From positions 1-64,000 of the forward strand of contig JAEINU010000007.1 in the NCBI GenBank assembly GCA_016342685.1: a stretch of 64,000 nucleotides of DNA, read 5' to 3'. The notes below the pieces were generated by a model that had not been told where the DNA came from, did not search any database, and saw only the letters and a list, made by a program, of their open reading frames with translations. Source of the DNA: Bacteroidales bacterium. GTDB taxonomy: Bacteria > Bacteroidota > Bacteroidia > Bacteroidales > UBA12077. Every line of letters begins with the position of its first letter. Positions within the stretch are counted from its first letter, which is position 1. The position numbers and the translations under genes are program-made. Positions 4,824 through 61,524 of this stretch are shown one piece after another.

Positions 4824-7800
4824 TTATTGTTTTATTATCTTAAATGTCTGAATTTCGGAGTTATTTATTTCAATTACTAAAAAGTAAACTCCACTAGGAA
4901 GATGACTTGTTGTTATATTTTCTTCTCCATTGATATTTTTCTCAAGTAATTTCTGACCAGTTAAATTGGTTATTATAACTTTAACAATATCTAGATTACT
5001 CTCAAAACTAATATAATCAACAAAAGGATTTGGATAAATTTTTATATCAAATTCCGATATTTCATTGATACTTGTAACAGCTAATATATTTGCAGTTGTT
5101 GTAGGAGAGCCTTCAAGCGATAAACTATAATTTTCCTTATCTGTTCCATCTAGTTTTGCACTTGTAATATTTACTACAATATTTACTACAATATTTGATT
5201 GTGAAAATTCAGCAACTTCATTAGTTAATATAATATCATCATTTTCGCTTGTTCCAACTAGAGTAAGCTCGTTATTATCTATTGTAGCTGTCGTATTTCC
5301 ATCATAATCTTTATCCAATACGGTAAATGAACCTGAAATTGCAAGTTCTTTTTCTGTTATATCTGCAGAAAGCCCATTTGGTTGAGTAAGTAAATAATTT
5401 CCAGCATCAGAACCGGTTATAGTAATTGCCGGAGTTACTGATTTATTTGTTTCTACATTTTTATCGCTAAAATTACCCACTGGCTCATCTAAAGTAATAT
5501 CATCACCAGAAAGAGTTCCAATAATCGAAACTCCTGTAATTTTAGCATCTGTTGTTCCATCATATATTTTATCAGAAGCAGAAGCACTGTTAACAGTTAG
5601 TTCTTTGGTAGTAATATCGGCAGTAAGTCCTGATGGTTGAGTAAGGTTATAGTTTCCAGTATTTGTACCTGCAATAGTAATTGCAGCATTAACTGATTTA
5701 TTTGTTTCTACATTTTTATTACTAAAATTACCCACTAGTTTATCTAAAGATATATCATCACCAGAAATAGTTCCAATAAGAGAAACTCCTGTGATTTGAG
5801 CATCTGTTGTTCCATCATAAATTTTATCAGAAACTGATGCACCACTAATAGTTAATTCTTTGGTAGTAATATCGGCAGTAAAACCTGTTGGTTGATTAAG
5901 TGTGTAGTTAATTGCATCATTACCAGAAATGGTAATAGCAGGAGTAACCGTTTTACTAGCTCCCACATTTTCATCACTAAAATCGCCAACAAGAGCGTCA
6001 AAGTCGACATTGTCACCAGAAACTGTTCCAATGAGAGTTGCACCTGTAATTTCGGCGTCTGTATTTCCGTCATAAATTTTATTAGAAGCATTTGCACCAC
6101 TAATAGTTAATTCTTTGGCAGTAATATCTGCAGTAAGTCCAGATGGTAGGGAAAGAGAATAATTACTTGCGTCTGCTCCTGCAGTAGTAATCGCAGGAGT
6201 TATGGTTTTGTTTGTTCCAACATTTTTATTACTGAAGCTTGCATTGATTTCATTTAAAGCAACATTATCACCAGATACAATTCCAACAAGAGAAGCACCC
6301 GTAATTTGAGCATTAGTATTTCCATCGTAAATTTTATCAGAAGCGTTTGCTCCACTAATAGTTAATTCCTTAGTTGTAATATCAGCCTTAAGCCCTGTTG
6401 GTTGCGTAAGTGAGTAGTTAATTGCATCATTACCAGAAATGGTAATAGCAGGAGTAACTGTTTTACTTGTTCCCACATTTTCATCACTAAAATTGCCAAT
6501 AAGAGCGTCAAAATCTAGATCATCGCCTGATACAATTCCAACAAGAGTGGCATCCGTAATTTCTGCATTTATATTTCCGTCATAAATTTTATTAGAAGCA
6601 ACAGCACTGTTAACAGTTAATTCTTTTGTGGTAATATTTGCTGTTGCTAGTGGTGAACCTGTTAATAATACATTATATTTTAATGAATCACTTCCAGAAA
6701 GTATAACATCATTTATTTTAACAGTTTTATTTAAACCAATATTTTTTCCTGCAAAGCTTAAATCCAGATCTGAAATATTTATATTTTCATGTCCTGAAAC
6801 AATATTTCCAAGGCTAAGGTTATTTATTAAAACAGATGCAGTTGAATCTCCATCATAAGTTTTATTGTTTGCTGTGAAATCGCCGCTAAGAGTTAATTCT
6901 TGTTGAGGAATAAACTGTCGTATATTTCCATAGTCGGTGCCACTTCCATTGGTAGCATATGCTCTTACATAATATTCTTCTCCAGGATTAAGTGAAGTTA
7001 AGTTACTGCTGAAAGTTCCTATTCCGCTACCATCACTTGAAATTCCAAGATTGTCGATAGTTGTTGGATCTGGTGTTGTGTTCCATACAATTCCACGCTC
7101 TGTTATAGTACTTCCTGCACTATCTGTTACTTCTCCTCCCGAAGTAGCAGTTGTAAATTCGATATCTGAAATGGAATCCGTTATAACTGCTGGAAGATTA
7201 GACATTCCACCATCAGTTATTGTCCAACCATATGTATCAATAATATATTGTCTTGCATCTGCTGCATTTCCCGTTGAAAATTTGCTTTGACCACCATGAA
7301 AAGTTACGTTATTTTTTAATGGTAATAAGGACCAATTAATTAAGATCTTGTTATAATATGCTGTAGATATTTTAAAATTGAATAACAAGTATCCCATATT
7401 GGTAACATTTCTAACGTTCCAATTGCTTATATCCTGGTTGAATGATGAAGCATAGATAAACATATGATCCATATCAGTAACATTACTCACATTCCAATCT
7501 CCTATAAATTGATCAAATGCCGATGCATAAGCAAACATATTACCCATGTAAATAACATTGCTCACTTCCCAACTTTCAATTTTTTGATTAAAGTTGGAAG
7601 CGTCTCTAAACATATATGACATGTCAGTAACCTTACTTACATTCCAATTATCAATCTTCTGATTAAATAAAGTCGCACCATAAAACATTCCATACATGTT
7701 AGTGACCTTACTCACATTCCAATTTCCAATAGGTTTATTAAAACTTGAAGCATCAGAAAACATAGATCTCATATTGGTAACCTCACTCACATTCCAATTA

Positions 7801-47519: not shown

Positions 47520-50500
47520 ATGAAAAGTTTCCGATTTTATAACAACCTTATTGGTTGGATTACCTTTATTATTGCAGCAACTGTTTATTTATTGACAATA
47601 GAACCAACTGCAAGTTTTTGGGATTGTGGAGAATTTATTGCTTCGGCATTCAAATTAGAAGTGGGACATCCACCGGGAGCACCCTTTTTTATGATACTTG
47701 GTAGATTTTTTACTTTGTTTGCTGGGAACGTTGAAAATGCTGCCAAGATGGTAAATATGATGTCGGGATTAGCAAGTGCTTTTACGATTCTATTTTTATT
47801 TTGGACTATTACCCATTTTGCAAAAAAAATAATTCTTAAAGATGGTAATTATACTACCGGTAAAATCCTGACAGTTATTGGAACAGGTCTAGTTGGCGCA
47901 TTGGCTTATACATTTTCTGATACATTTTGGTTTTCGGCAGTCGAAGCTGAAGTTTATGCCACATCTTCTTTATTTACGGCAATTGTATTTTGGGCAATCT
48001 TAAAATGGGAAAACGAAGCTGATTTAAAATATTCGAACCGTTGGATTATTTTTATTGCATACCTAATGGGATTATCAATAGGAGTGCATTTATTAAACTT
48101 ATTGGCAATTCCAGCAATTGTATTTGTTTATTATTTTAAAAAATATTCGGTAACAAGAAGAGGCGTGTTTTACGCTTTTGTTATTTCTGGAATATTATTA
48201 GCTGTAATAATGTATGTTCTAATTCCAGGAGTTATTAAAGTTGCATCATGGTTCGATCTATTATTTGTTAATGGATTTGGATTACCATACAATTCAGGAG
48301 TACTTTTTTATATTGCTTTATTAATAGCAGTTATTATTTGGGGATTAAAATACACTCAAAAACAAGGCAAGACCGTTTTTAACACAATTATTATAGGATT
48401 TACGGTTATTTTAATTGGGTATTCTTCTTTTGCAATGGTTGTAATTCGATCGTCGGCTAATCCGCCTATGGATCAAAACAATCCTGATAATGCATTTGAT
48501 TTACTATATTATTTAAACAGAGAGCAGTATGGCGATAGACCTTTGTTTTATGGACAATCGTTCGACGCCCCAATGATTAGCAATAAGGAAACGAAGCCAG
48601 TTTATGTAAAAAAAGATGGTAAATATATTGTAGCCGATCACAAAATAGAAGTAGAGTTCGATCCTCGATTTACTTCAATCTTTCCCCGAATGTATAGTCC
48701 GGAACAAAGACATGTGGCTCAATATAAGAACTGGGTTGATTTGTCGGATAATGAAATTACAATTACGAACGCTCGTGGGGAAAAAGAGAAACGAATAAAG
48801 CCTTCTTTGTCCGACAATATTGCGTTTTTTGTAAAGTATCAATTTGGACATATGTACTTTAGGTATTTTATGTGGAATTTTGCTGGGCGGCAAAATGATA
48901 TTCAAGGGCATGGGAGTGTTTTAAAAGGGAATTGGATAAGTGGTATTCCTGCTATTGATAACGCCCGATTAGGAAACCAAGACGATGTTCCCGATCATTT
49001 GAAAAATAACCCTGGAAGAAATAAATATTACATGCTACCTTTTATTCTGGGTTTACTCGGATTAGTTTATCAATACAAAAGGAATAAGAAAGATTTTGCG
49101 ATTGTATTAATGCTATTTATATTAACCGGAATAGCAATTGTGGTGTATTTAAATCAATATCCAATGCAGCCAAGAGAACGAGATTATGCATTTGCTGGTT
49201 CGTTTTATGCTTTCGCGATTTGGATTGGATTAGGTGTTGCTATGTTAACTGAGTTGATGAGTAAGAAAGTAAATCGTTCGGTTTCAGCGATACTTGTTAC
49301 AACTGTAAGTTTGGTTCTTGTCCCAGGGATCATGGCTGCAGAAAATTGGGACGATCACGATCGATCAGGAAGATATACAGCAAGAGATTTAGCTTATAAT
49401 TATTTGAATTCGTGTAAAGAGAATGCAATTTTATTTTCGAATGGAGATAACGATACATTCCCTTTGTGGTATGCTCAGGAAGTTGAAGGAATTAGAACAG
49501 ATATTAAAGTGTGTAATTTGAGTTATTTGCGGGCGTCTTGGTATATTGAGCAAATGAGCAGAAAATCATATGAATCGGATCCAATGCCTTTTTCTTTAAC
49601 GCATGATAAAATCCATAAAGGGAATAGGGATGTTCTGCCAATAATTGATCGGATTGGTAAGGCGGTTAATGTTAAAGATGTTGTTAGTTTTATTGCCAGC
49701 GATGATGAAAAGACCAAGATTAACTCACCTTTTGTTGAAAATGAGACAGTAAATTATATTCCAACAAAAAAGTTTAGTTTACCAATAAATAAAGATGAGA
49801 TTCTCGAAAAGGGAATTCTAGATCAGAAATATGCCGATCGAATAGTAAATTCTATAGAATGGAGTTTTGGTCAATCTTATTTATATAAGGATGGACTTAT
49901 GTTACTTGATTTATTGGCAACAAATAACTGGGAGCGACCAATATATTGGGCATCAACAGTGACGAGTTCAAAATATTTTAATTTGGGAAAATATTTCAAA
50001 TTAGATGGTTTAACCTATCAGCTTGTTCCTTTTATAGCTGAAGATAGCAGGGGTTATACGGGCGAAGTTGATACAGATGTGGTGTATAATAATATTATGC
50101 ACAAGTTTAAGTGGGGTGGTATAGAAGAGGGTGATATTTATTTCGATGAAAATAATATTCGAATGTTTTCGAATTTACGAAGCAGCTTTGGGCGCTTAGC
50201 CGAGAAACTAATTGACGAAGGTAAGGTAGATTCTGCTTTAACGGTTTTAGATAGATGTATGGAATTATTTCCTGACCATAAGATACCTTTTAATAATACC
50301 TTGTTGTCGGTAGTTTCTGCATATTATCATGCAGGAGGAATTGAGAAAGCGGAGTCTTTAGTTCATTTATTATCTGGAAAAATGTATTCAGAATTGGACT
50401 ATTATTTTAGTCTGAACACTAAATATATCAATGGCAGAAGAGACATCTCGAATGAAATTCAATTGAATTTGTTTATCTTACAGGAATTGTATCGAATAAC

Positions 50501-50579
50501 GGGAGAATTTGATCAGCAGGCAATTAACACTGAAATAGAAGAGAATTTTATGCGATACGTGCAAATGTATAGAAGATAA
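47520..50579 (+). CDS. DUF2723 (GT117-type) membrane protein
   Basis: This 1,019-residue protein has about 11 membrane segments in its first 600 residues and a soluble C-terminal half with TPR-like helices (about 890-1000, LDRCMELFPDHKIPFNN). The N-terminus holds TIEPTASFWDCGEFIASAFKLEVGHPPGAPFF, the diagnostic DUF2723 loop with Asp and Glu, and a later PMQPRERDYAFAGSFYAFAIW. The family is GT-C like; involvement in protein O-glycosylation or surface glycan transfer in Bacteroidota is plausible but not shown by the sequence. The deacetylase gene starts on the base after its stop. Confidence 0.9.
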   Translation: MKSFRFYNNLIGWITFIIAATVYLLTIEPTASFWDCGEFIASAFKLEVGHPPGAPFFMILGRFFTLFAGNVENAAKMVNMMSGLASAFTILFLFWTITHFAKKIILKDGNYTTGKILTVIGTGLVGALAYTFSDTFWFSAVEAEVYATSSLFTAIVFWAILKWENEADLKYSNRWIIFIAYLMGLSIGVHLLNLLAIPAIVFVYYFKKYSVTRRGVFYAFVISGILLAVIMYVLIPGVIKVASWFDLLFVNGFGLPYNSGVLFYIALLIAVIIWGLKYTQKQGKTVFNTIIIGFTVILIGYSSFAMVVIRSSANPPMDQNNPDNAFDLLYYLNREQYGDRPLFYGQSFDAPMISNKETKPVYVKKDGKYIVADHKIEVEFDPRFTSIFPRMYSPEQRHVAQYKNWVDLSDNEITITNARGEKEKRIKPSLSDNIAFFVKYQFGHMYFRYFMWNFAGRQNDIQGHGSVLKGNWISGIPAIDNARLGNQDDVPDHLKNNPGRNKYYMLPFILGLLGLVYQYKRNKKDFAIVLMLFILTGIAIVVYLNQYPMQPRERDYAFAGSFYAFAIWIGLGVAMLTELMSKKVNRSVSAILVTTVSLVLVPGIMAAENWDDHDRSGRYTARDLAYNYLNSCKENAILFSNGDNDTFPLWYAQEVEGIRTDIKVCNLSYLRASWYIEQMSRKSYESDPMPFSLTHDKIHKGNRDVLPIIDRIGKAVNVKDVVSFIASDDEKTKINSPFVENETVNYIPTKKFSLPINKDEILEKGILDQKYADRIVNSIEWSFGQSYLYKDGLMLLDLLATNNWERPIYWASTVTSSKYFNLGKYFKLDGLTYQLVPFIAEDSRGYTGEVDTDVVYNNIMHKFKWGGIEEGDIYFDENNIRMFSNLRSSFGRLAEKLIDEGKVDSALTVLDRCMELFPDHKIPFNNTLLSVVSAYYHAGGIEKAESLVHLLSGKMYSELDYYFSLNTKYINGRRDISNEIQLNLFILQELYRITGEFDQQAINTEIEENFMRYVQMYRR

Positions 50580-51188
50580 ATGTTAAAAATAGAGCATATG
50601 GGAGCAATCGTATTTAGAGATCTTATTTGGCATTTCCCAGGTAAGGAAAATGAATTGTTTCTAACTTTTGACGATGGACCAGAACCTGAGATTACACCTT
50701 GGGTTCTTTCGGAGTTAAAGAAATATAATGCTAAAGCGACTTTCTTTTGTGTTGGAAATAAAGTAGAAAAAAATCCAAGTTTGTACAATCAGATTCTAGC
50801 CGAAGGGCATTCGGTTGGGAATCACACATATTCTCATATTAAAGGTTGGACAACGGCTAGTGAAAATTATGTTAGCGATGTCGATAAAGCCAAAGAATTT
50901 ATACAATCTAAGTTGTTCAGGCCGCCCTATGGAAGAATCCGTCCGCACCAACTAAAAATACTAAAGAAAGATTTTAAGATTGTTATGTGGGATGTGCTAA
51001 GTAAAGATTACGATCCAAAAACAACGAATGAGCAATGTTTCAATAATGTTACTGATTATGCCGAATCGGGGTCAATAATTGTTTTTCATGATAATATTAA
51101 ATCACAAAACAATTTATTTTACGCTTTACCTAAAGTGCTAGAATACTATTCAGATCAGGGTTTTGTTTTTAATTCAATTTCGTTTTAA
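50580..51188 (+). CDS. Polysaccharide deacetylase family protein
   Basis: This 202-residue NodB-fold hydrolase removes acetyl groups from a polymer such as peptidoglycan or chitin oligosaccharides. Metal and catalytic residues are seen as FDDGPEPE (Asp31, Asp32), NHTYSH (His82, His86), RPPYGR, and IVFHDN near the C-terminus. No signal peptide is seen. The ATG directly abuts the stop of the DUF2723 gene (TAAATG), so translation is coupled; an internal ATG at 50598 is also possible. It overlaps the convergent nucleotidyltransferase gene by 15 bp. Confidence 0.9.
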   Translation: MLKIEHMGAIVFRDLIWHFPGKENELFLTFDDGPEPEITPWVLSELKKYNAKATFFCVGNKVEKNPSLYNQILAEGHSVGNHTYSHIKGWTTASENYVSDVDKAKEFIQSKLFRPPYGRIRPHQLKILKKDFKIVMWDVLSKDYDPKTTNEQCFNNVTDYAESGSIIVFHDNIKSQNNLFYALPKVLEYYSDQGFVFNSISF

Positions 51189-52337
51189 TATCTTAAAGAT
51201 CATCAAAAAAGGTCTGAGTGGATAATATAGAAAGAAAAAACTGTTGGGAAGTTTTAATAACTCCCAATCCGAAAAATGAGTTCTCAATCTGTAAACCAGA
51301 TCAAAATAATATTTAAAGTCAGGTTTTAATTTTAAGCGATAAAAGACATATTTAAATTTACCGAAAATATTTCTTTGCTTTAATTCGGTTGTTGCAATAG
51401 ATTTTAAAGGGATTTTAAGAAGCTTTTGTCCGATTAATTCCGACTTTAAAAAAACTGGCATTTTTATATTATATAGGCATTCCGATAAAATACATGCTTG
51501 CAAAAAACATCTGTTTAGCTTTAATTTTTTTGAGAGTTCAAAAGCTTTTTGCAAATCTTTAGATTCTGTTTTCGAGATTAGCACAGAAAAATCTTTAAGC
51601 CAAAATAATCTGTACCATTGATGAATTGCACCGTGAGCCGCTAAAAAAACTATATTCTCGGGCATAGAAATATAGGGTAAAACGTAACTATGTATGTTTA
51701 GCGTTTTTCTGTTGTTAATTACTGTGTTTGTTGGGATTGACACAAAAGACTTTGGATTGCTTAAATTCCAATGTAACTCAACATCCGTTTTTAAGTATTT
51801 ATTTTGTAAGTGATAATGATGACTAATTCGATAGTTTATTTTTCTTTGAAACTTAGTTAACTCCTGTTTAGGTTCATGTAAATCATATTCTAATTCTTTA
51901 ATTATAGATAATGATTTTTCAATAGATTCCTTCTGAACCAAAAGATCAATATCTCTATAATTTCTAAACCCAATATCATTATAGAGTTCGTAAGATAATA
52001 ATGAGCCTTTAAAAAAGACATGTTTAATGTTTTGTTCTGTTAATTTTTTATGGATTTTTAATAATTCACGATTAAACAGTAAGCTTTTTTTTATTTGTTC
52101 GAGATGTATTGTCTTAATCGTATTTAATATTTCATGTGGTATAACATCTATTGTTTTTTGATTTTTTAATACATGAGAAACTAAACGATGTTTTTTTATT
52201 AATTGGATAAATGAATCCCAACATATATTTTTTAAATTAATTTTAAAATTGTTTAATGCGTCATCTTGCGAAAGAAACACGATCAATTTAAGTTCATCCG
52301 AAAAACACGAATCTATATATTTATTTAGCTTAGTCAT
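51174..52337 (-). CDS. Nucleotidyltransferase of the lasso cluster (NTP_transf_5-like)
   Basis: This is a 387-residue protein of the nucleotidyltransferase-like family PF14907. The signature FFKGSLLSYELYNDIGFRNYRDIDLLV gives the KGS motif (about 110-112) and the metal-binding D129-x-D131. I chose the ATG at 52337, which overlaps the cyclase stop (ATGACTAA); the alternative TTG at 52361 adds only 8 residues. Homologues occur in paeninodin-type lasso clusters (padeN), where the partner kinase phosphorylates the C-terminal Ser. From memory, a Bacillus homologue works on the phosphorylated tail. Here it is coupled to the cyclase gene, so a tailoring role is likely; the donor is unknown. Confidence 0.85.
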   Translation of the reverse strand: MTKLNKYIDSCFSDELKLIVFLSQDDALNNFKINLKNICWDSFIQLIKKHRLVSHVLKNQKTIDVIPHEILNTIKTIHLEQIKKSLLFNRELLKIHKKLTEQNIKHVFFKGSLLSYELYNDIGFRNYRDIDLLVQKESIEKSLSIIKELEYDLHEPKQELTKFQRKINYRISHHYHLQNKYLKTDVELHWNLSNPKSFVSIPTNTVINNRKTLNIHSYVLPYISMPENIVFLAAHGAIHQWYRLFWLKDFSVLISKTESKDLQKAFELSKKLKLNRCFLQACILSECLYNIKMPVFLKSELIGQKLLKIPLKSIATTELKQRNIFGKFKYVFYRLKLKPDFKYYFDLVYRLRTHFSDWELLKLPNSFFFLYYPLRPFLMIFKILKRN

Positions 52338-54195
52338 TAAAATAATCGGGATGTTTTTCAATAAAAAGAATGAGTTTTAAATAATTATAAAATGCACCGG
52401 GATTTACAACACGATCTTTATTTTTCGATCTCGTAAGTAGTTGATTAAACCAGTTTTCGTATTTATCCAAATCGATGTGTTTAGTAATTTTTGCATTTGA
52501 TTTTGACCGACGAATAATCTCTAAGATTTCATCTTTATCCATTAAAGTGCGCATAAAAACAGTCGGAACTGTTGCCCCACTTTTATCTTCTCTCCATTGT
52601 ATTTCTGTCGGAAGAAGTCCTTCCATTGCTTTTCGTATGGCGTATCTTTTAATTCCATTTCGTGCTTTTAATCTTGGAGGAATGGATAAATAAAATTCAA
52701 TTAATCGTTTGTCAAAGAACGGATAGCGATATTCTATTCCTTGTTTTCTGGCTGCCAAACTACAATATTCTAAACGTTGCGATACATGTGCATGAGTTAT
52801 TCGTTCAATATTTTGTTCCTGAGTAGAAGATGGTTTACTATTTTCAAAACTTGAAAAGTAACGTTCTTTAATTTTCATCTTACCCCCAAAAGTATTATCG
52901 AAAGCTAATTGATCATATTTTTCATACCACCAAGGTTTTTGCTTATTTATTAGGGCAAATGCTTTATACAAAAAAGGAATTTTAGTTTGCATAAAGTATT
53001 TTACAAATCGTTTATAAGCTTTATGCCAGGGAATGTCTTGATTTTTAAGATCTTTAATTAATTCTTTCCAATTAGAATTGCTTGCAAGTTCTTGCAAATA
53101 AAGCGTAGCTTTAGAAGTGATTACTTCATCGCCACCAAAGCCGGAAAGTAAAACAGACACTCCTTTTTGATTGGCTTTTTTATAAAGAGAATCTGAAAAA
53201 ATACCAAAATTTTGTTGAGGAATAAATTCAAAATCAGATAGATTATTCTTTAACGCATTAAGAATGCCATTTTCTTCAGAATAAATATATTCATTATTGA
53301 TTTTAACAAAATTACAAACTAAACCAATTTGTTCTTTTTCGTCTTTGAAAGGATGTATTTTCCCAATTTTATTCTCAGGCAAAACATGTGAAAAGGTTTT
53401 GAGCTGAGTAAACTGATTTGCACATGCTGCAATTGTTGAAGAATCTAATCCACCACTTAGTTCTGCTCCAATTATTTCATCAGTATTTAAACGACAACGA
53501 ATTGATTCAATTATAAGAGATTTAAAACGATCAATAATTTCATCTTCAGGTAATGTGAGAGTTTCTTGCGGCTTAAGCTTCCAGTATTCTTCAATCTTTA
53601 TAGCATTATTTTGGAATATTAGATTATGGGCTGGTAGGAGTTTTTTTATTTCGCTAAAGGAGGTTCTATTTTTCTCCGATTTAACTATTGAAATTGTATC
53701 AGCTATATATTGTTCGTCAATTGTAAATTTTAAATCTGTTTGAGAAAGAATTGTCGATATTTCCGATGAAAAAACAAACGTATCATCTTTGTGATAAAAG
53801 AAAAAAGGTTTTAGTCCAAAATGATCTCTTCCGCAAAACAGTTTTTTATTTTTTTTATCCCAAATGGCAAAAGCAAAATCTCCTAATAGGAACTCTGTGC
53901 ATTTATCGCCCCAAGTTTTATATGCCGAAAGAATTAGTTCATCATCACTCGGGTTCGAATCATTGATGCTTAAGGATTTTTTAAGCTCTTCTTTGTTGTC
54001 AATTCTACAATCGGAACATATTATAAATGAATCTGTTTCAAAAACACTTGGTTTGGGGAGTCCTAATTTTACTTGAACAAAGCCATTGTTGTCAGAGATA
54101 TTGGATTCTATAGAATTGTTTTTGGCTGAGATTTTTTGAATAGCATCATCAAATAGATCTGTATGAATATTTATCCTGCCAAAGAAAGAGTTCAT
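52330..54195 (-). CDS. Lasso peptide cyclase (asparagine-synthetase-like C protein)
   Basis: This is a 621-residue asparagine synthetase homologue that adenylates the ring Asp/Glu side chain of a lasso precursor so that the N-terminal amine can close the macrolactam. The ATP-pyrophosphatase motif is GAELSGGLDSSTIAA (about 242-256). The N-terminal glutaminase-like domain reads MNSFFGRINIH where class II GATases have MCGI; the nucleophile Cys is gone, so it cannot use glutamine as a normal AsnB does. I chose ATG 54195 over the upstream TTG at 54216. It is divergent from the kinase gene (121 bp) and overlaps the nucleotidyltransferase gene. Confidence 0.88.
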   Translation of the reverse strand: MNSFFGRINIHTDLFDDAIQKISAKNNSIESNISDNNGFVQVKLGLPKPSVFETDSFIICSDCRIDNKEELKKSLSINDSNPSDDELILSAYKTWGDKCTEFLLGDFAFAIWDKKNKKLFCGRDHFGLKPFFFYHKDDTFVFSSEISTILSQTDLKFTIDEQYIADTISIVKSEKNRTSFSEIKKLLPAHNLIFQNNAIKIEEYWKLKPQETLTLPEDEIIDRFKSLIIESIRCRLNTDEIIGAELSGGLDSSTIAACANQFTQLKTFSHVLPENKIGKIHPFKDEKEQIGLVCNFVKINNEYIYSEENGILNALKNNLSDFEFIPQQNFGIFSDSLYKKANQKGVSVLLSGFGGDEVITSKATLYLQELASNSNWKELIKDLKNQDIPWHKAYKRFVKYFMQTKIPFLYKAFALINKQKPWWYEKYDQLAFDNTFGGKMKIKERYFSSFENSKPSSTQEQNIERITHAHVSQRLEYCSLAARKQGIEYRYPFFDKRLIEFYLSIPPRLKARNGIKRYAIRKAMEGLLPTEIQWREDKSGATVPTVFMRTLMDKDEILEIIRRSKSNAKITKHIDLDKYENWFNQLLTRSKNKDRVVNPGAFYNYLKLILFIEKHPDYFND

Positions 54196-54213
54196 TATCG
54201 TTTTCTGTTTTAA

Positions 54214-54221
54214 CAAAGATA
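54214..54221 (-). promoter_or_regulatory. Putative -7 element of the lasso C-N operon
   Basis: On the minus strand TATCTTTG (54221-54214) matches TAnnTTTG and lies 18 bases before the cyclase ATG at 54195. No clear -33 element. Confidence 0.4.
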
Positions 54222-54288
54222 AACATTTGGTCAGGATTAATCTAGAGCTAAAATGCTTAATAATTCATCGTTTTGTTGTAATTTCATA

Positions 54289-54296
54289 TAAATTTG
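54289..54296 (+). promoter_or_regulatory. Putative -7 element of the lasso K operon
   Basis: TAAATTTG matches TAnnTTTG and lies 20 bases before the kinase ATG at 54317. With the element at 54214-54221 it forms a divergent promoter region. Confidence 0.4.
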
Positions 54297-54316
54297 TGGG
54301 GCATATTAAAAAACGA

Positions 54317-55213
54317 ATGAGTTCTATTTACAACTATACAGCATTTGGATTAAATTTCCAGTCGGAGTTTGAGATTCCAGAATTTCTAAGCGGTAATAGT
54401 CAACCTGATGTTAGCATTAGAATTGGGAGAGTTCCTTCCGAGCTTAAAAATGCAAATAAAAGTGGAGTTAGTTATCAAGCCACTAAGGATGAATTTCTTT
54501 TGGAAATTGACAATATTGCACGTTTTTATGTGAAAAAAGGAACAGAAATTATAGTTGAACCAAAACATAAAGATATTGATAAAGAAATTCGTTTGTTCCT
54601 GTTGGGTTCTGCATTAGGTGCGTTGTTTGTTCAGCGCGGATTATTGCCAATTCATGGGAGTGCAATTAAAATTGGGGAAAAAGCAACTATTTTTTCAGGA
54701 CCAAGTGGTGTAGGTAAATCATCAATAGCAGCGTATTTTTCAAAAATTGGATTTCAAGTTTTAAACGACGATATTTCAGTTATAGATTCTGAATTAAAAC
54801 TAAATCCTGGATTTCCTAAAATGAAGATTTGGCACGATGTTGCTAAAAAATTAGAATTGCAAATAAATAATCTATCTGAAATTCGACCAAGCATTCAGAA
54901 ATATCATTTACCAATAAATAGTGTTTTTTGCAATCAAGCACTTAGTTTAGAAAGAATGATCATAATTCAATCTAAAAACACACCAGAGTTTGAGTGTGAA
55001 GAACTAACTGGAATCAAAAAGTTTAATGCCGTAAAAAATAACACGTATCGATATCGATTTGTAGAAGGTTTGGAAAAGCAACAAGATCATTTTGTGATAT
55101 TAAATAAACTTATACCTAAAATAAAGGTTTATAGAGTTTCACGTCCGCAGTCGTCAATTCAATTAAAAGAGTTCGCCGATTTTCTAATTAAAACATTGAA
55201 CATTGATGTATAA
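54317..55213 (+). CDS. Lasso peptide kinase, HPr-kinase-like
   Basis: This 298-residue protein belongs to the HprK-like ATPase group found in lasso clusters. The P-loop is GPSGVGKSS (128-136), preceded by LPIHGSAI (110-117) and followed by VLNDDISV (148-155, Asp pair). I start at ATG 54317 because upstream sequence from a TTG at 54227 has no family support. In paeninodin clusters the homologous kinase phosphorylates the C-terminal Ser of the precursor; the precursor here also ends in Ser. The sulfotransferase start overlaps its stop by 8 bp. The enzyme is unlikely to act on HPr since no PTS genes are near. Confidence 0.85.
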   Translation: MSSIYNYTAFGLNFQSEFEIPEFLSGNSQPDVSIRIGRVPSELKNANKSGVSYQATKDEFLLEIDNIARFYVKKGTEIIVEPKHKDIDKEIRLFLLGSALGALFVQRGLLPIHGSAIKIGEKATIFSGPSGVGKSSIAAYFSKIGFQVLNDDISVIDSELKLNPGFPKMKIWHDVAKKLELQINNLSEIRPSIQKYHLPINSVFCNQALSLERMIIIQSKNTPEFECEELTGIKKFNAVKNNTYRYRFVEGLEKQQDHFVILNKLIPKIKVYRVSRPQSSIQLKEFADFLIKTLNIDV

Positions 55214-56072
55214 AAAGAATGTCATATGGCTAGCAAGTTATCCAAAATCGGGCAACACTTGGTTTCGGGTTTTTTTAACAAATCTATTAAGCGATTCAGA
55301 CAAACCTGCAAACATTAATGATTTAGCTGAATCATCTATTTCCAGTTCACGAAAAGTGTTTGATGATTATACGGGGATTGCATCTTCAGATCTAACTTCT
55401 GAAGAAATTGATAAATTAAGGCCTGAAGTATATAAAAAGCAGTCGGAAGAATCTAAAGATTTATTATTTAAGAAAGCTCACGATAAATACTATTTTGTCG
55501 ATGATGATAAAGCTCTTTTCCCTTCCGAGATTTCAAAATGTGCTATTTATTTTGCGAGAAATCCTTTAGATGTTTTAGTGTCGTTTGCTTACCACAGTTC
55601 TAAGCCAGTTAATGAAATGACTAAGGTCTTAAATGATTCTAAGTATGCTTTTTGCTATAAAAATAATCGTTTACACAATCAATTACGCCAATTACTCGGA
55701 ACTTGGTCTGAGCATATAAATAGTTGGACTCAGCAAACACAAATCCCAATTCAAGTTGTTCGTTACGAAGATATGATTAACGATACATTCTCAACTTTTC
55801 GTTCTGCGGTGGACTTTATTGGACTAAATAAAGATGATAATCAAATACAAGATGCAATACAGAAAAGTGAGTTTTCGGTTTTGGCAAAGCAAGAAAAGGA
55901 AGATGGTTTCAGAGAGAAGATGATAAAATCAACAGCGTTTTTCAGGAAGGGTAAAATTGGAGATTGGAGAAATCATTTAGATGAAAAAATGAAGAATGAA
56001 ATAATAAATAATCATAAAGAAATTATGATGAAATTTGGTTATTTAAATAGTAATAATGAATTGATTTATTAA
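55206..56072 (+). CDS. Sulfotransferase of the lasso cluster
   Basis: This 288-residue cytosolic PAPS-dependent sulfotransferase has the 5'-phosphosulfate loop SYPKSGNTWFR (about 11-21), the 3'-phosphate motif RNPLDVLVSFAYH (about 119-131) and the C-terminal FRKGKIGDWRNHLDE segment usual for aryl or alkyl sulfotransferases. The ATG at 55206 overlaps the kinase stop by 8 bp, so the two are translated together. Its place between kinase and B1 suggests it sulfates the lasso peptide, whose core holds Tyr4, Thr7, Thr11 and Ser17. This is inference; sulfation of a cell-surface glycan is the alternative. Confidence 0.88.
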   Translation: MYKKNVIWLASYPKSGNTWFRVFLTNLLSDSDKPANINDLAESSISSSRKVFDDYTGIASSDLTSEEIDKLRPEVYKKQSEESKDLLFKKAHDKYYFVDDDKALFPSEISKCAIYFARNPLDVLVSFAYHSSKPVNEMTKVLNDSKYAFCYKNNRLHNQLRQLLGTWSEHINSWTQQTQIPIQVVRYEDMINDTFSTFRSAVDFIGLNKDDNQIQDAIQKSEFSVLAKQEKEDGFREKMIKSTAFFRKGKIGDWRNHLDEKMKNEIINNHKEIMMKFGYLNSNNELIY

Positions 56073-56078
56073 TAAAAC

Positions 56079-56209
56079 TGAGCTTGTCCAAAAAGATCTT
56101 AAAGTTGTCATTCTGAGCTTGTCGAAGAATCTATAGATTTAATTATGAAATATTTCGACAGGCTCAATATGACATCATTGAAAGAATGTTTGCTTTTTAG
56201 ACAACCTCA
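56079..56209. mobile_element. Nested-palindrome MITE-like or REP-like element
   Basis: Outer imperfect inverted repeats (17 bases) lie at 56079-56095 and 56193-56209. Inner inverted repeats (20 bases, 3 mismatches) lie at 56107-56126 (GTCATTCTGAGCTTGTCGAA) and 56154-56173 (TTCGACAGGCTCAATATGAC). The inner sequence resembles a dispersed intergenic repeat I know from many Bacteroidota genomes. It fills the gap between the sulfotransferase and B1 genes and has no coding capacity. It could be mobile, or act as an RNA hairpin that affects B1-B2-A expression. Confidence 0.65.
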
Positions 56210-56225
56210 TTGTAATTAGATAAAT

Positions 56226-56507
56226 ATGAAACTTACAGTTGATACAACAATACAACGAAATAACGATACTTTGACCAGTGACATTGACGGGGAGAAAGTT
56301 ATGATGAGTGTTAAGCATGGAGAATATTATGGCTTAGGACAGACAGGTAGTTTTATTTGGGATAATATTTCAGATCCAATTAATATAGGTTATTTAGTAG
56401 AACTGATTCTGGAAAAGTTTAAGGTTGAAAAAGAACAGTGCCTAAAAGATATTTTACCTTTCTTAAATGATTTAGTGGAAAAGGGCTTGGTTATTGCAAC
56501 CAAATAG
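56226..56507 (+). CDS. Lasso leader-binding protein B1 (PqqD family)
   Basis: This is a 93-residue PqqD-like RiPP recognition element that binds the precursor leader and hands it to the peptidase and cyclase. Seen are the N-terminal strand region SDIDGEKVMMSVKHGEYYGLGQTGSFIWDNI, where MMSVKHGEYYGL matches the PqqD pattern, and the helical C-terminal half (LILEKFKVEKEQCLKDILPFLNDLVEKGLV). The B2 gene follows after 35 bp. In this family the leader motif (Y/W)xxPxL docks on this domain, and the precursor at 57044 carries WEAPKL. Confidence 0.9.
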   Translation: MKLTVDTTIQRNNDTLTSDIDGEKVMMSVKHGEYYGLGQTGSFIWDNISDPINIGYLVELILEKFKVEKEQCLKDILPFLNDLVEKGLVIATK

Positions 56508-56542
56508 TATTTTATTTCGTTAAATAAAAGCGTGTTAATGAA

Positions 56543-56980
56543 ATGTTTAGTCAAGTAAAAAAATATTTTAGACAAAACAAACAAGAGCGAAAAATATTGA
56601 ATCGAACATTCGCATGGTTATTAATGTCATTTATATTGGTTAGAATTATTCCATTAAAATGGTTTGGTTCATTGTTAGGTGTGTTTAAAAAGGAGATACG
56701 AACAGAATTAGAAGCAACTGATCTAATAAAGATTACTTCAGTAAAAAGAAGCATAAGACGTATTAAAAGGGTTTTACCTTGGAAAATAAAATGCTTTGAA
56801 GAAGCAATCACAGCGAAAAAGGTGCTAGAGAGATATGAAATAAAATCCACTCTTTATTTAGGAGTTGATATAAATGAAAAGAAACAACTAAAAGCGCATG
56901 CATGGCTTAGAAATGGAGATTATAATATTACAGGTGGAGATCTTGCAACAAAATTTAAAGTTGTAGGTTTTTATAGCTGA
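56543..56980 (+). CDS. Lasso leader peptidase B2 (transglutaminase-like)
   Basis: This 145-residue cysteine protease cuts the leader from the lasso precursor. The catalytic triad is visible as Cys84 in PWKIKCFEEAI, His119 in LKAHAWLRNG and Asp126 in GDYNITGG, the usual CxxEA ... AHAW layout of lasso B2 proteins. The N-terminal part has one hydrophobic patch (AWLLMSFILVRIIPL, about 24-38). It is 35 bp downstream of B1 and 63 bp upstream of the precursor gene. B1 and B2 being separate genes is the split form of the family. Confidence 0.92.
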   Translation: MFSQVKKYFRQNKQERKILNRTFAWLLMSFILVRIIPLKWFGSLLGVFKKEIRTELEATDLIKITSVKRSIRRIKRVLPWKIKCFEEAITAKKVLERYEIKSTLYLGVDINEKKQLKAHAWLRNGDYNITGGDLATKFKVVGFYS

Positions 56981-57005
56981 ATAGGAGATGTTTACACAAT
57001 ATTAT

Positions 57006-57014
57006 TAACTTTGC
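57006..57014 (+). promoter_or_regulatory. Putative -7 element of the lasso precursor gene
   Basis: TAACTTTGC is a full match to TAnnTTTGC, 29 bases before the precursor ATG. It could give the precursor its own transcript, in excess over the enzymes. No clear -33 element is seen. Confidence 0.45.
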
Positions 57015-57043
57015 ATATAAGTTAGAAAGAAACGTAGAAAGAG

Positions 57044-57190
57044 ATGAAAGAGAAAGAGTTGCCAAAAGAAGAAAATCAAATTAAAAAAGATTGGGAAGCA
57101 CCTAAGCTTTTATGTTTGGATAAAGGAAAAACTGAAGGAGGAGAATATCCTGATACTAATGAAGATACTGTGTTTGATATTCACTCGTGA
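57044..57190 (+). CDS. Lasso peptide precursor (A protein)
   Basis: This 48-codon gene lies directly after B1-B2 and is easily missed because of its size. The leader (about 31 residues) is charged and holds WEAPKL at 17-22, a match to the (Y/W)xxPxL docking motif, and Thr30 at position -2. The predicted core is GGEYPDTNEDTVFDIHS (residues 32-48): Gly1 as the ring amine, Glu9 as the only acidic residue at positions 7-9, an 8-residue tail and a C-terminal Ser. Cutting after Glu31 would give a 9-membered Gly1-Glu9 macrolactam. A start at Gly33 would give an 8-membered ring but shift Thr to -3. The next gene begins 11 bp downstream. Confidence 0.82.
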   Translation: MKEKELPKEENQIKKDWEAPKLLCLDKGKTEGGEYPDTNEDTVFDIHS

Positions 57191-57201
57191 AAATATTTAT
57201 T

Positions 57202-60200
57202 ATGAAATTTTTTAAACTGACTTCGTTAATATTTTATATTTTATTGGTAAGCAGTTCCTTTGCTCAAGAATGGACTAATTCTAGATTTTTTTCATCTGAT
57301 GATGATATCACAATAGACTATATAAGAAAGAATTTTAATGGTGATATTGTAATTGCAGGAACGCTTAAAGGGACTTATTCGGATACAGATACTACTATTA
57401 TTGCTAATAGTATAGATATATTTCTTGCAAAATTTGATAGTGATTATAATAAAAAGTGGTTTAAAGTTATTGGAGGCGATCATTATGATTTTGATCCAGT
57501 AATTTCTATTGATGAAAATGATAATATATACGTACTTGGAACATTTTTACAAACGTGCAAATTTACTCCAGACGATTCATTAATTGCAGACTTTATAGAT
57601 GTTTTTTTAGTAAAATATGACCAAAATGGTAATCACATTTGGAATAAACATATAGGCTCAAATCTAGATAGGCAATATGCGCAAAGTATTGATATTGATA
57701 AAAATGGCGACATTATTGGAGCCTACAGATATCGAAATTCTACAACTTTTATTGACACTACAATTACAGGACGAACGGGGAAATATAATAATATCTTATT
57801 TAAAGTTGATCAGAATGGAGTGCGTAAGAATATAAAAAATGTAATAAGTAATGAAACAAGTTTGTTTACATCTATAAAGGCGTTCTCTGATGGATATTAT
57901 ATTAATGGTCAGTTTAAAGATAGTTTATTGTTAGACATTAGTCCTATCAAAAGTTATAGTAGTACTAAGGACGTTTTTTTATATAAAACAGATTTTGATT
58001 TTGATGGAGTTTGGGTAAGAAGATCCTATGGTGATGGTGATGATTTTACAGGGACAATTACTCAAGATAATTATGGTAATATTTATTATACTGGGTATTA
58101 CAACAGTTCTAACTTTCATGTTGATTCAACATCTTATATTGAATCAAATGTGGTATTGTCAAACCAAGGTAATACTGATATTTATATTACAAAATATAAT
58201 AAATCAGGGGACTTAATTTGGTTAAAAAATTTTGGTGGCAAGGGTAGTGATTGGGCAAGGTCAATTGAACAAAAAAACGATTATTTATTTCTTACTGGAT
58301 ATTTTTCAGATACAATAAATTATGAAATAGATACTTTAGTTTCTTCTGACATTAACGATTTAGATTTTTTTATTGGTTATTTAGATTTAAGTGGTAATGT
58401 ATTAGGTGGAGATGAAATAATAACGTCAGGTTCTTTAGATAATGATTCGGGCACTGATGTGCTTGTCAATGATGACAATACAGTTACAGTAGCTGGCTAT
58501 TTCAAGTCTGAGACAGCTCAAATAGGTTTAGACATTTATTCAAATGCAAGTGTGGGAAGTAAGGATGCATTTCTTGCAAAAAATAAACCTTTATTAGTTA
58601 CAATATATACAGATATTACAGAAATTTCTTGTAATGGGGAAACAGATGGTTCATTAACTGTTACACCTTATTTTGGAACTGCTCCATATACGTATTCGTG
58701 GAGTCATGATGGTTCATTAAACGATTCTGTTGCATCAACTCTTGCAGCAGGAGCTTATACAGTTACAGTTACAGATGCTAATTCAGATACGGATGAAGTG
58801 TCATATACTCTAATTGAACCTGCTCCAATTAATTTTAATCCGAGTATTACAAATATTACCGCTTGTAGTTATAGCCTAGAAGGTGCAATTGATCTTAATA
58901 TGTCAGGAGGGAATGGAGGTTTTGAGTATCAATGGCAAGCTACAAATGGTGGTTTTGGAGCTGTTTTTAATGTAGAAGATCAGAGCGGACTTACAATCGG
59001 AACTTATAATGTTAGTGTTACCGATGTTAATCAATGTATAGCTGATACAAGTATAATACTTACAGGACCAGATCCTGTTGTGTTTACAAATTCAATTGTA
59101 ACCGATTCATCATCTTTAGGACTTGGTGCTATAGATTTACAATATTCAGGCGGGTTCGGAGTTTCTTTCACCTTTGACTGGGAATATCCTTCTGGTGCAA
59201 CTGCAACTACCGAAGATATTTCTAATTTAAATACAGGAAATTATAATGTCACAGTTACAGATGCTCATGCATGTGAGTTCGATACTATATTTAATGTAGC
59301 GAATCTGGACGCTTTCTATATTTTCATTGAAGAGTATAAAGACGCATGTAAAGGAACAATTAATGGTACTGCAACAGTGTCTTACTATTCACCCACAAGT
59401 CATACTGGAATTGATTATTTATGGGATGGAAATGCAGGTGGACAAACTACTGCACAGGCTACCAATTTAGCGCCGGGAAGATATTATTATGTTACAGTTA
59501 CGGACGTTGAAAACGATCCTGATATTGTATTAGTAGATAGTGTTTATATTGATGAATTAACTTATGATTTCACAGGATCTTTGTCTGGAACCTCTTTACT
59601 AAATTGTTTTGGAGATGCAGACGGTTATGTTGATCTTACTATTACATCAGGGACAGCTTTGCCAATCACATACAATTGGAGTACAGGTTCTAATCTCCAA
59701 GATTTAACTGATGTAAGTGTTGGTTCTTATAGCGTTACAGTTACAGACGATAATAGTTGTCAATTCTCAGAGGTAAACTTTGTCATTAATCAACCAACAG
59801 CTTTAGCTATATCAGCCGAGATTGTTAATGAACCATCGTGTAATGGTGATTTCGATGGTGAAATAACCGTAGATAGATCAGGAGGAACAATTCCTTATTC
59901 TTATCAATGGAATGATCCAGGATTTCAAAATACACGCAGTGCTGATGGATTGGATGCTGGCTTTTATACGGTAACTGTTACCGATAATAATAGTTGTAGC
60001 GCAAGTTCGGGAATTAATTTAACAGAGCCTGATGAAATTAGTGTTTTAAAAGTTGTTTCAGACGAATCATGTAATACATCTTCGGATGGTTTTGCATCGT
60101 TAACCGTTTCTGGAGGAACTTCACCATTCTCATATTTTTGGTCAACAACGAACGGAACGGGCTTAAATATTACCGATAAAGATCAAAGTGGATTAACAGC

Positions 60201-61524
60201 TGGTGATTACTATTTTACTATTACTGATAACAATAATTGCACCTTCGACGATAGTGTAAAAATATTGGAACCTGTTTTGTTGGAAATTACTTTAGAGGAA
60301 ACTACAAATGGGACATCGTGTACTGGAGTAGATAATGGATCAATTAATATTACAGCAACTGGAGGGACAGGTGTTTTAACATATACTCTAAATCCTGGGG
60401 CAATTCAAACAAATGCTACCGGAAGTTTTATTAATGTTGGATCAGGAACGTATACTATTGATGTTGAAGATGAGAATACCTGTATAGTAAGTTCAAACCC
60501 ATTAGTAATTACTGAACCCGAAATTTTAACTATTAATACAGAATTAATTACAAATGCGTATTGTTTTGGTACTGATAATGGTAGTATCGAAATTAGTATA
60601 ACAGGAGGTACGGGCAGTTATGTATACGTTTGGACTACAAGCGATGGTTCAGGACTTATTGACGGTGTTGAGGATCAAATGGCCGTTGGAACAGGTACTT
60701 ATAATTTAACTGTAACAGATGATAACTTGTGTGAAGCAAATACGAGTTTTTCAATTACTGAACCTGAATCAATGGATATTGAAAAATCGATTTTTCAACC
60801 ATTTTGTAATGGAACAAAAGACGGGGTTATTGTTTTATCTGTTACTGGTGGGACTTTACCTCTTTCGTATTTCTGGTCGACAATAGATGGCTCTGGATTA
60901 ATACCTACAAATAAGCACCAAAGCGAGTTAAGTCCTGCATGGTATTTCATTCGAGTTGACGATGCAAATGGATGTATATATAATGATAGTGCAGAGATTA
61001 TTGATCCTCCTGTAATTTCAATATTATCAGAATCTTCTACAGATGCAAGTGACAATAATGCTAATGATGGAACAATTACAATAGAAGCTACAGGTGGTAC
61101 TCCGCCTTTAACGTTTACTTTAAATCCAGGTGGGAAAGTGAGTTCGTCCGGTATATTTAACGATTTATTCCCAGGAGAATATATAGTTGAGGTTTCTGAT
61201 TTTAATGTGTGTGGGCCGTATAATTCAACTAGTCTCACAGTTGGATCGACCAATTCTATTTACAATATAAATATTGATGATAAAATAAACATCTATCCAA
61301 ATCCTGTTAGAACGGTTTTAAATATTGATTTTAACCTAGAATTACAGGATGTATACACATTACAATTAATTAGTATTTCTGGCCAAATTGTATACAATAA
61401 GCAAGTGGATTCAGGACAAAGTAAGGAAGAGATAATTGAAATAAGTAGTTATCCAAAGGGGCTTTATTTCATTAAAATTTACAATAGTAAAACAAGTTAT
61501 CAAGAGAAATTGATAATACAATAG
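57202..61524 (+). CDS. Giant secreted SBBP/SprB-repeat protein, T9SS cargo
   Basis: This is a 1,440-residue exoprotein from ATG 57202 (an upstream GTG at 57187 overlaps the precursor stop and is less likely). A signal peptide occupies 1-22. The N-terminal third (to about 463) has SBBP-like beta-propeller repeats (KFDSDYNKKWFKVIGG, KYNKSGDLIWLKNFGG). About 11 SprB repeats follow (CNGETDGSLTVTPYFGTAPYTYSWS, CFGDADGYVDLTI, CNGDFDGEITVDRSGGT), then a type A sorting domain (INIYPNPVRTVLNI). SprB-type repeats occur in gliding adhesins and surface proteins. The 11 bp gap to the lasso precursor suggests shared transcription. A terminator follows. Confidence 0.92.
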   Translation: MKFFKLTSLIFYILLVSSSFAQEWTNSRFFSSDDDITIDYIRKNFNGDIVIAGTLKGTYSDTDTTIIANSIDIFLAKFDSDYNKKWFKVIGGDHYDFDPVISIDENDNIYVLGTFLQTCKFTPDDSLIADFIDVFLVKYDQNGNHIWNKHIGSNLDRQYAQSIDIDKNGDIIGAYRYRNSTTFIDTTITGRTGKYNNILFKVDQNGVRKNIKNVISNETSLFTSIKAFSDGYYINGQFKDSLLLDISPIKSYSSTKDVFLYKTDFDFDGVWVRRSYGDGDDFTGTITQDNYGNIYYTGYYNSSNFHVDSTSYIESNVVLSNQGNTDIYITKYNKSGDLIWLKNFGGKGSDWARSIEQKNDYLFLTGYFSDTINYEIDTLVSSDINDLDFFIGYLDLSGNVLGGDEIITSGSLDNDSGTDVLVNDDNTVTVAGYFKSETAQIGLDIYSNASVGSKDAFLAKNKPLLVTIYTDITEISCNGETDGSLTVTPYFGTAPYTYSWSHDGSLNDSVASTLAAGAYTVTVTDANSDTDEVSYTLIEPAPINFNPSITNITACSYSLEGAIDLNMSGGNGGFEYQWQATNGGFGAVFNVEDQSGLTIGTYNVSVTDVNQCIADTSIILTGPDPVVFTNSIVTDSSSLGLGAIDLQYSGGFGVSFTFDWEYPSGATATTEDISNLNTGNYNVTVTDAHACEFDTIFNVANLDAFYIFIEEYKDACKGTINGTATVSYYSPTSHTGIDYLWDGNAGGQTTAQATNLAPGRYYYVTVTDVENDPDIVLVDSVYIDELTYDFTGSLSGTSLLNCFGDADGYVDLTITSGTALPITYNWSTGSNLQDLTDVSVGSYSVTVTDDNSCQFSEVNFVINQPTALAISAEIVNEPSCNGDFDGEITVDRSGGTIPYSYQWNDPGFQNTRSADGLDAGFYTVTVTDNNSCSASSGINLTEPDEISVLKVVSDESCNTSSDGFASLTVSGGTSPFSYFWSTTNGTGLNITDKDQSGLTAGDYYFTITDNNNCTFDDSVKILEPVLLEITLEETTNGTSCTGVDNGSINITATGGTGVLTYTLNPGAIQTNATGSFINVGSGTYTIDVEDENTCIVSSNPLVITEPEILTINTELITNAYCFGTDNGSIEISITGGTGSYVYVWTTSDGSGLIDGVEDQMAVGTGTYNLTVTDDNLCEANTSFSITEPESMDIEKSIFQPFCNGTKDGVIVLSVTGGTLPLSYFWSTIDGSGLIPTNKHQSELSPAWYFIRVDDANGCIYNDSAEIIDPPVISILSESSTDASDNNANDGTITIEATGGTPPLTFTLNPGGKVSSSGIFNDLFPGEYIVEVSDFNVCGPYNSTSLTVGSTNSIYNINIDDKINIYPNPVRTVLNIDFNLELQDVYTLQLISISGQIVYNKQVDSGQSKEEIIEISSYPKGLYFIKIYNSKTSYQEKLIIQ

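Follow-up and report, generated by a model that had tools for sequence, protein, structure and literature searches.

The lasso peptides closest to those considered here carry a modified C-terminal tail. Paeninodin bears a phosphate on its C-terminal Ser, and in pseudomycoidin a PsmN-type protein transfers hexose onto the phosphoserine, as described in passages of PMC8498205 and PMC9266682. According to passages of PMC13381572, the precursor recognition elements (RREs) of the paeninodin family have Gly, versus Asn elsewhere, prefer WxxP leaders and are confined to Bacillota, and what phospho-lasso peptides of the paeninodin type do biologically is not known. Sulfotransferases have also been noted in lasso clusters, with their role unexplained (passages of PMC4289311 and PMC8498205). 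The present study concerns a related locus in the window, i.e. the whole stretch of 64,000 nucleotides analysed (positions 1 to 64,000, forward strand, of contig JAEINU010000007.1, assembly GCA_016342685.1), which comes from a Bacteroidales bacterium of the family UBA12077. A preliminary description had reported a complete lasso peptide gene cluster with a 48-codon precursor at 51174-57190. It is probable that the locus is a functional phospho-lasso operon with a tail-phosphorylated product and with a surface protein, encoded just downstream of the precursor, as the probable partner.

A lasso locus with the 17-residue core GGEYPDTNEDTVFDIHS and a predicted Gly1-Glu9 ring is strongly supported by the sequence, and a C-terminally phosphorylated lasso peptide is very likely the product. 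The locus is real and conserved, and ordinary in kind, but its partner gene is unusual and testable. The coordinates and reading frames of 51174-57190 proved to be as described. The kinase (K), sulfotransferase (S) and nucleotidyltransferase-like (N) genes were absent from that description, and the surface-protein gene lies beyond its interval. The gene content, motifs and gene order are as follows, with the flanking genes last.

51174 to 52361, minus strand: N, NTP_transf_5 nucleotidyltransferase-like protein (PF14907, E 4.3e-45), a PsmN-type candidate for transfer of hexose to phosphoserine; syntenic
52330 to 54216, minus strand: C, lasso macrolactam cyclase with the Asn-synthetase fold (PF00733, NF033535); inner ATG at 54195
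54317 to 55213, plus strand: K, HPrK-like, a candidate kinase for the C-terminal Ser of the peptide (weak Hpr_kinase_C and HprK_rel_A matches, below cut-off)
55206 to 56072, plus strand: S, sulfotransferase (PF00685, E 6.7e-28)
56226 to 56507, plus strand: B1, PqqD-like RRE, predicted leader binder (NF033536 above cut-off)
56543 to 56980, plus strand: B2, transglutaminase-like leader protease (NF033537 above cut-off; C84/H119/D126)
57006 to 57015, plus strand: TAACTTTGCA, candidate Bacteroidota -7 promoter element, judged by its position 5' of the precursor
57044 to 57136, plus strand: leader of the precursor A, 31 aa, with W(-15)xxPxL at 57092-57109 and Thr(-2)
57137 to 57187, plus strand: core of A, GGEYPDTNEDTVFDIHS, with the Glu9 acceptor and the C-terminal Ser; stop codon 57188-57190
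57202 to 61524, plus strand: surface protein with a signal peptide, a beta-propeller of ~440 residues at 57202 to ~58600, SprB repeats (PF13573, 8 stretches) and a type IX sorting domain (PF18962, TIGR04183)
47520 to 50579, plus strand: DUF2723 (TMEM260-like) membrane protein (PF11028, E 2.5e-78), conserved left flank outside the cluster
50580 to 51188, plus strand: polysaccharide deacetylase, flank (PF01522); syntenic in 11/11 loci L032-L042
61653 to 62924, plus strand: purD (GARS), conserved right flank (Pfam GARS domains)

The asparagine-synthetase-like cyclase had been reported to lack its GATase Cys2, and this residue is indeed absent both from the TTG start, where the protein begins LLKQKTIMNSFFGR, and from the inner ATG at MNSFFGR; its best NCBIfam match is the lasso cyclase model NF033535 (407.5 bits). 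The PqqD-like nature of B1 and the Cys84/His119/Asp126 set of B2 were likewise recovered, and both proteins pass the cut-offs of their lasso models (NF033536, 94.5 bits versus 80; NF033537, 72.1 bits versus 33).

The precursor, whose ATG lies 63 bp after the B2 stop, is real. A search of 25 genomes of the family with its 48 residues found one copy each, at the same position, in 12, all of one genus; translation and motif revealed a divergent 13th precursor in a genome of the sister genus (G004, locus L043). B2 is present in 14 of the 25 genomes, own included, and in G012 divergent B1 and B2 are present and the search saw no precursor. The W leader motif, Thr(-2), Gly1 and Glu9 noted earlier are all found in the window. 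The 12 genus precursors share the leader consensus WE[AVT]PKL.[CS]LDK..TE; their Thr(-2) and C-terminal Ser are invariant, and W stands at -15 in all of them and in L043. Core residue 1 is Gly in 11/12 (Asn in L039) and residue 2 is Gly in 12/12, while Glu occupies position 9 in ten cores and position 8 in L036. The GG core start leaves a slack of one residue, with Glu9 if the first Gly is G1 and Glu8 if it is the second. Each related species compared carries its own core, and the precursor has no NCBIfam match. Of the 17-residue lasso proposed earlier, the core length and the Gly1-Glu9 ring stand, by homology and conservation; a bare peptide appears improbable, given the C-terminal Ser and the K, N and S genes.

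Several peculiarities of the precursor region should be mentioned. In L042 the precursor (9795-9947) has the core GGETHDVTKEATSYQVS, with acidic residues at 3, 6 and 10, which points either to a ring of unusual size or to a shift of the cut, since cleavage one residue further on would put Glu at 9. L039 has ~1 kb (5554-6583) between B2 and the precursor, occupied by two small ORFs that we take to resemble a HEPN/MNT pair. The box TAnnTTTGCA occurs in 7/12, and TTGCA in 12/12, genus stretches of 220 nt upstream of the precursor (TAnnTTTGCA in shuffles, 0.6%); it presumably corresponds to the Bacteroidota -7 promoter consensus, and no full -33/-7 promoter match was found upstream of the precursor. 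Because the box precedes A, this candidate element suggests that A and the surface-protein gene share a promoter. The L043 core begins with Asn and has Ile at -2. Asn is the predicted first core residue of the precursor-like ORFs in L039 (5402-5554), L043 (1742-1927), L121 (8803-8967) and L122 (4400-4573), i.e. in two bacterial phyla; for metanodin, passages of PMC12670498 report an Asn1 lasso peptide, said there to be without precedent.

The kinase retains His, GxSGVGKS and Asp-Asp in 12/12 genus rows, the same catalytic residue set that passages of PMC10368454 name for lasso kinases. Because these residues are kept and the terminal Ser is invariant, phosphorylation of the C-terminal Ser is predicted. 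K, S and N are kept together in 11/11 genus loci compared and, by analogy, are predicted to make the locus a phospho-lasso system of the paeninodin/pseudomycoidin type. S adjoins K in L032-L042, L097, L112 and L120-L122. Thirty-two lasso regions from across the phylum were compared, covering 34 of its 39 B2 places besides our own; S lies beside K in two of them (L097 and L112), and a K match at E <= 1e-3, in some cases weak, is present in 23. S also occurs with K in the alphaproteobacterial plasmid regions L118, L120, L121 and L122. As the genome contains an adenosine phosphosulfate (APS) kinase gene, the sulfate donor phosphoadenosine phosphosulfate can probably be made.

The following scheme may be proposed, each chemical step being inferred from relatives. 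B1 would hold the WxxPxL leader of A, and K would phosphorylate the C-terminal Ser while the precursor is linear. B2 would release the core by cleavage behind Thr(-2)-Glu(-1); joining of Gly1 to Glu9 by the cyclase would give a threaded 17-mer. NTP_transf_5 would probably attach one or more hexoses to the phosphate, an assignment by analogy that we slightly favour. S would add sulfate to the hexose-phosphate group or to a different hydroxyl, which is put forward tentatively. The calculated neutral monoisotopic masses are 1894.786 Da for the linear core, 1876.775 Da for the lasso, 1956.741 Da for the lasso with phosphate, 2118.794 Da with hexose in addition and 2198.751 Da with phosphate, hexose and sulfate; a lasso bearing one sulfate (1956.732 Da) would be only 9.5 mDa away from one bearing one phosphate. 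Tyr was rejected as a general sulfate target: the cores of L033, L038 and L040 (3/12) have no Tyr though S is present. That S acts solely on an N-added sugar is a mere possibility, the stretches L120 and L121 having K and S but no N match. For export the product would depend on a transporter gene outside the locus, and it would probably act at the cell surface, where the surface protein, probably co-transcribed with A, would be its receptor, tether or immunity partner.

The comparison of relatives was based on 13 regions taken around family B2 genes: L032-L042, L031 from G012, and L043 from G004, where the contig starts within S. One gene order recurs in all 11 loci L032-L042: DUF2723, deacetylase, N, C, K, S, B1, B2, A, surface protein. 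The purD right border was found in eight of them, as well as in L043, L031 and L081; in L038, L039 and L041 the contig end falls within or just beyond the surface-protein gene, before purD. The DUF2723 protein has a match in 24/25 family genomes, paralogues counted, with lasso genes present or not. A cyclase relative of at least 50% identity occurs in 16/20 genus genomes, own included, and not in G012, G015, G021 and G023. The G009 cyclase is a fragment. A stop is counted within the match in both G009 and G018, yet G018 has an open frame of 628 residues. In G015, DUF2723 is followed by other genes. Two contigs of G012 carry cluster genes: N, K and S lie at the end of one, B1-B2 immediately ahead of purD on the other. 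In G003 a K-S pair sits between DUF2723 and purD. In G018, N and C are followed by an unrelated gene, and in G002 the cyclase has no N after it and a contig end on its other side. It looks as if the locus is old and decaying in parts, and as if some gaps are gaps of assembly. A cyclase-based search gave 15 loci, among which L017 alone has K, B1 and B2 matches. In the window, the gap between S and B1 contains a short direct repeat, CTGAGCTTGTC.AA.AA (56078-56129).

The surface-protein ATG follows the precursor stop by 11 nt in the window and by 9-72 nt in 12 relatives (10 nt in L042). Its propeller domain matches the SBBP model NF047494, under the cut-off. AlphaFold models residues 1-490 with a mean pLDDT of 87.9, the N-terminal domain being all-beta. 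Its nearest fold, at a TM-score by query of 0.65-0.70 and a sequence identity of 20-22%, is the propeller of CylK. The genome encodes SprA, a type IX translocon protein. The precursor and the propeller co-occur: at E <= 1e-40 the propeller was found once each in 13/25 family genomes, the same 13 that have the precursor and directly 3' of it, and was not found in the remaining 12, which also gave no precursor. As regards the wider phylum, the propeller alignment has matches in at least 28/395 genomes at E <= 1e-30, a lower bound since at most four candidates were scored per genome. The own propeller scores 640 bits and the other 27 matches no more than 193 bits, and none of these 27 genomes is among the other 35 phylum genomes with B2. 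No SprB-type protein was found beside the lasso loci in the 32 phylum regions. The literature search gave no paper joining a lasso peptide with type IX secretion; in a search for the type IX secretion system (T9SS), SprB, adhesins and tail collar, 'lasso peptide' was absent from the matches listed, and the passages of PMC9248904 have no mention of 'lasso'.

Two observations concern other surface-type or neighbouring proteins. The window encodes a second very large type IX-secreted protein (4824-10514), in which ten stretches match DUF285 and seven match YDG. In L086 (4525-7162), L097 (10006-12678) and L112 (12388-15033), which are other kinase-type lasso loci of the phylum, phmmer detected three Collar-like proteins and one formyltransferase-like protein each, next to the lasso genes; Pfam confirmed Collar (PF07484) in a single protein from L097 and another from L112, and the formyltransferase in L086, L097 and L112.

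The precursor core and the propeller diverge fast. Over the 66 pairs of the 12 genus loci, mean identity is 77% for DUF2723, 73% for S, 68% for B1, 67% for K, 63% for B2 and 59% each for C and N; the leader, i.e. the 15 residues before the cut, reaches 86%, the propeller 42% and the core 32%. Rank correlation with DUF2723 identity (55 pairs, L035 being left out as its DUF2723 is cut) is 0.56-0.83 for the six biosynthetic genes and 0.54 for the deacetylase, but falls to 0.13, 0.09 and 0.08 for leader, core and propeller, respectively. The biosynthetic genes thus track species relatedness, but the core and the propeller do not. In the closest pair, L038/L039, identity is 98% for DUF2723, 94% for K, 90% for C and 93% for the leader, and 27% for the core and 45% for the propeller. 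At the DNA level 94/105 nt of the leader are identical in this pair, versus 18/48 of the core with its stop, and the break coincides with the first core codon; L037/L042 behave alike (82/99 versus 20/54 nt). The pattern fits either cassette exchange or strong diversifying selection on core and propeller.

A number of points weigh against a functional phospho-lasso operon with a surface partner. The cyclase score with NF033535 is under the cut-off of 525, and all family matches of the kinase are weak and under the cut-off. The core of L042 has no Asp or Glu at 7-9 if its first Gly is residue 1. The completeness claimed earlier extends to A, B1, B2 and C only, as a motif scan of the window gave no pair of ABC exporter motifs. 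There is none in 10/11 genus loci either, L042 having one at its far edge, while several other phylum lasso loci carry such a pair. Because the window has none, the exporter, if ABC-type, must be encoded elsewhere. With regard to the partner, pairwise co-variation of core and propeller was looked for and not found (Mantel rho -0.05, p 0.63), and L039 and L040 have propellers 71% identical and cores 13% identical. All 13 pairs of A and the surface protein seem to descend from one locus, and hence are not independent. The contigs of G009, G016 and G019 start inside the cluster, so that A and the propeller may be assembly losses there, and some of the genomes without them are incomplete (G003 57%, G021 70%, G018 78%, G012 78%, G023 79%). 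In addition, the propeller model gives no match in any of the 32 phylum regions with lasso genes.

These points bear most directly on the surface protein, for which the chances of being the partner of the lasso peptide seem about even. The best-surviving alternative, not far short of even chances itself, is an ordinary phospho-lasso cluster in which the T9SS/SprB protein is a mere vertically inherited neighbour, diverging as surface proteins do. The position of all pairs at one locus, from DUF2723/deacetylase to purD, agrees with it, as do the missing core/propeller matching and the spread of SBBP-type propellers over the phylum at the frequency given above. It accounts less well for a propeller that is single copy and found only with A, in two genera, for the short spacing of 9-72 nt, and for the absence of both A and propeller from G012, where B2 is directly followed by purD, and from G003. 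A bolder version of the partner hypothesis, in which core and T9SS propeller form a polymorphic recognition pair (a species-specific peptide plus its surface receptor, tether or immunity protein) that is swapped or diversified jointly between species, the conserved leader being the fixed end and the biosynthetic genes keeping their place, is rather unlikely.

Equally doubtful is a narrow-spectrum bacteriocin-like antibacterial product with the surface protein as its immunity protein or decoy. The core is hypervariable between close species and the machinery conserved, as in conflict systems, but the ABC exporter motif pair is missing, no membrane immunity gene is among the eight ORFs scanned, and the conserved locus is unlike the patchy Bacillota paeninodins (passages of PMC13381572). 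That the precursor stays linear and phosphorylated, like the linear polyphosphorylated peptides (LPP), is very improbable: a kinase and an NTP transferase also occur in the LPP family according to passages of the same paper, but here a cyclase and B2 are present, no signal peptidase is among the eight ORFs scanned, the Glu acceptor stands at 8 or 9 in 11/12 genus cores, and the leader has W, not Y. A decayed, non-functional cluster, for which the partial gene sets of G012, G003, G018 and perhaps G002 could be invoked, is the least credible, as the frames of the window are all open and the catalytic residues are kept.

Among the entries of the Protein Data Bank (PDB), the one nearest to the RRE protein B1 is 9x90 (PbaB1, 64 bits), followed by TbiB1 (30), LppB (26) and TfuB1 (20). 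The site of PbaB1 G42 is Gly in 12/12 genus rows and 4/5 Bacillota rows, Asn in 25/27 remaining phylum rows, and Asp in the sister genus and G012; at the second discriminating site, PbaB1 Q79, the genus has Asp or Glu, not Gln. In the B1 tree the genus and four Bacillota rows form one group (90/85), a fork not starred and based on few columns, with the sister genus outside. The cyclase tree places the genus and sister genus together (98/96), apart from the Bacillota cyclases, its deep forks being weak and its Bacillota rows few, and the kinase tree, with deep forks also weak, unites them (89/84) apart from 3/4 Bacillota kinases; the kinase of L119 (Bacillota, long branch) shares the same wide fork as the genus kinases. 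For the kinase, cyclase and sulfotransferase trees the minimum row length was 240, 500 and 240 residues and the minimum score 45, 120 and 100 bits, respectively, limits by which the split L017 cyclase was dropped; the B1 tree and residue counts comprise rows of at least 30 bits, with one L090 row, L104 and L105 left out. Because the B1 tree and the Gly site disagree with the cyclase and kinase trees, the choice lies between an exchange of the RRE and a double origin of Gly.

The locus would be significant in several respects. It places the set of W-type leader, kinase and C-terminal Ser with a Gly-type RRE outside Bacillota, and its operon lets the unexplained lasso-cluster sulfotransferase be assigned. 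A phospho-lasso system fixed across much of a genus and its sister genus, with species-specific cores and one surface protein that within the family was found solely next to the precursor, makes a role testable. If the recognition-pair version is true, the lasso peptide would have its own partner displayed on the surface, in a system of self/non-self or biofilm recognition. We take the agr and comQXP pherotype loci to be alike, in that the enzymes are conserved among close relatives while the peptide and the partner domain are hypervariable; the partner here is a surface propeller, however, not a sensor kinase, and pairwise specificity is not supported.

Compared with described peptide systems, the locus differs from LPP clusters, which have no cyclase and a YxxP leader, by its cyclase and WxxP leader. 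Lasso genes have already been reported in Bacteroidota, in the Amoebophilus asiaticus cluster; compared by description only, that cluster differs in that the passages of PMC8831229 mention no kinase or sulfotransferase. The Bsf system of Bradymonas (passages of PMC10368454) shares the kinase (BsfK) and the nucleotidyltransferase (BsfN), but has Ile(-2) and phosphorylates Ser3, whereas the window has Thr(-2) and Glu3, with no Ser3. The sulfotransferase-bearing lasso clusters of Firmicutes and other anaerobes (passages of PMC8498205 and PMC4289311) and L118 and L120-L122 share S with an HPrK-like kinase, and L120, L121 and L122 also have precursor-like ORFs with a W..P leader and C-terminal Ser (the L122 stretch without a cyclase match); their gene order is another and their proteins are distant.

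Pseudomycoidin of Bacillus pseudomycoides shares the kinase (PsmK) and the nucleotidyltransferase-like protein (PsmN), so that phosphate and hexose would be expected on the C-terminal Ser, to judge from passages of the papers cited above for PsmN; the differences are the added sulfotransferase and the core, and the function of N is assigned by analogy. The paeninodin family differs in being of Bacillota, whereas the present locus belongs to a genome with type IX secretion. The cyclase falls outside the Bacillota rows and the kinase outside 3/4 of them, the locus is conserved and has the sulfotransferase between K and B1, no ABC exporter is seen, Asp/Glu replaces Gln at the PbaB1 Q79 site and the precursor lacks an NCBIfam match. 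Paeninodin of Paenibacillus (PadeA/K/C/B1/B2) nevertheless shares the WxxPxL leader with W at -15, the HPrK-like kinase, the C-terminal Ser and discrete B1 and B2 proteins, and its family shares the Gly at the PbaB1 G42 site, PbaB1 being the nearest PDB relative of B1. By its sequences, the system is not placed inside the paeninodin family, though it would work like a member of it.

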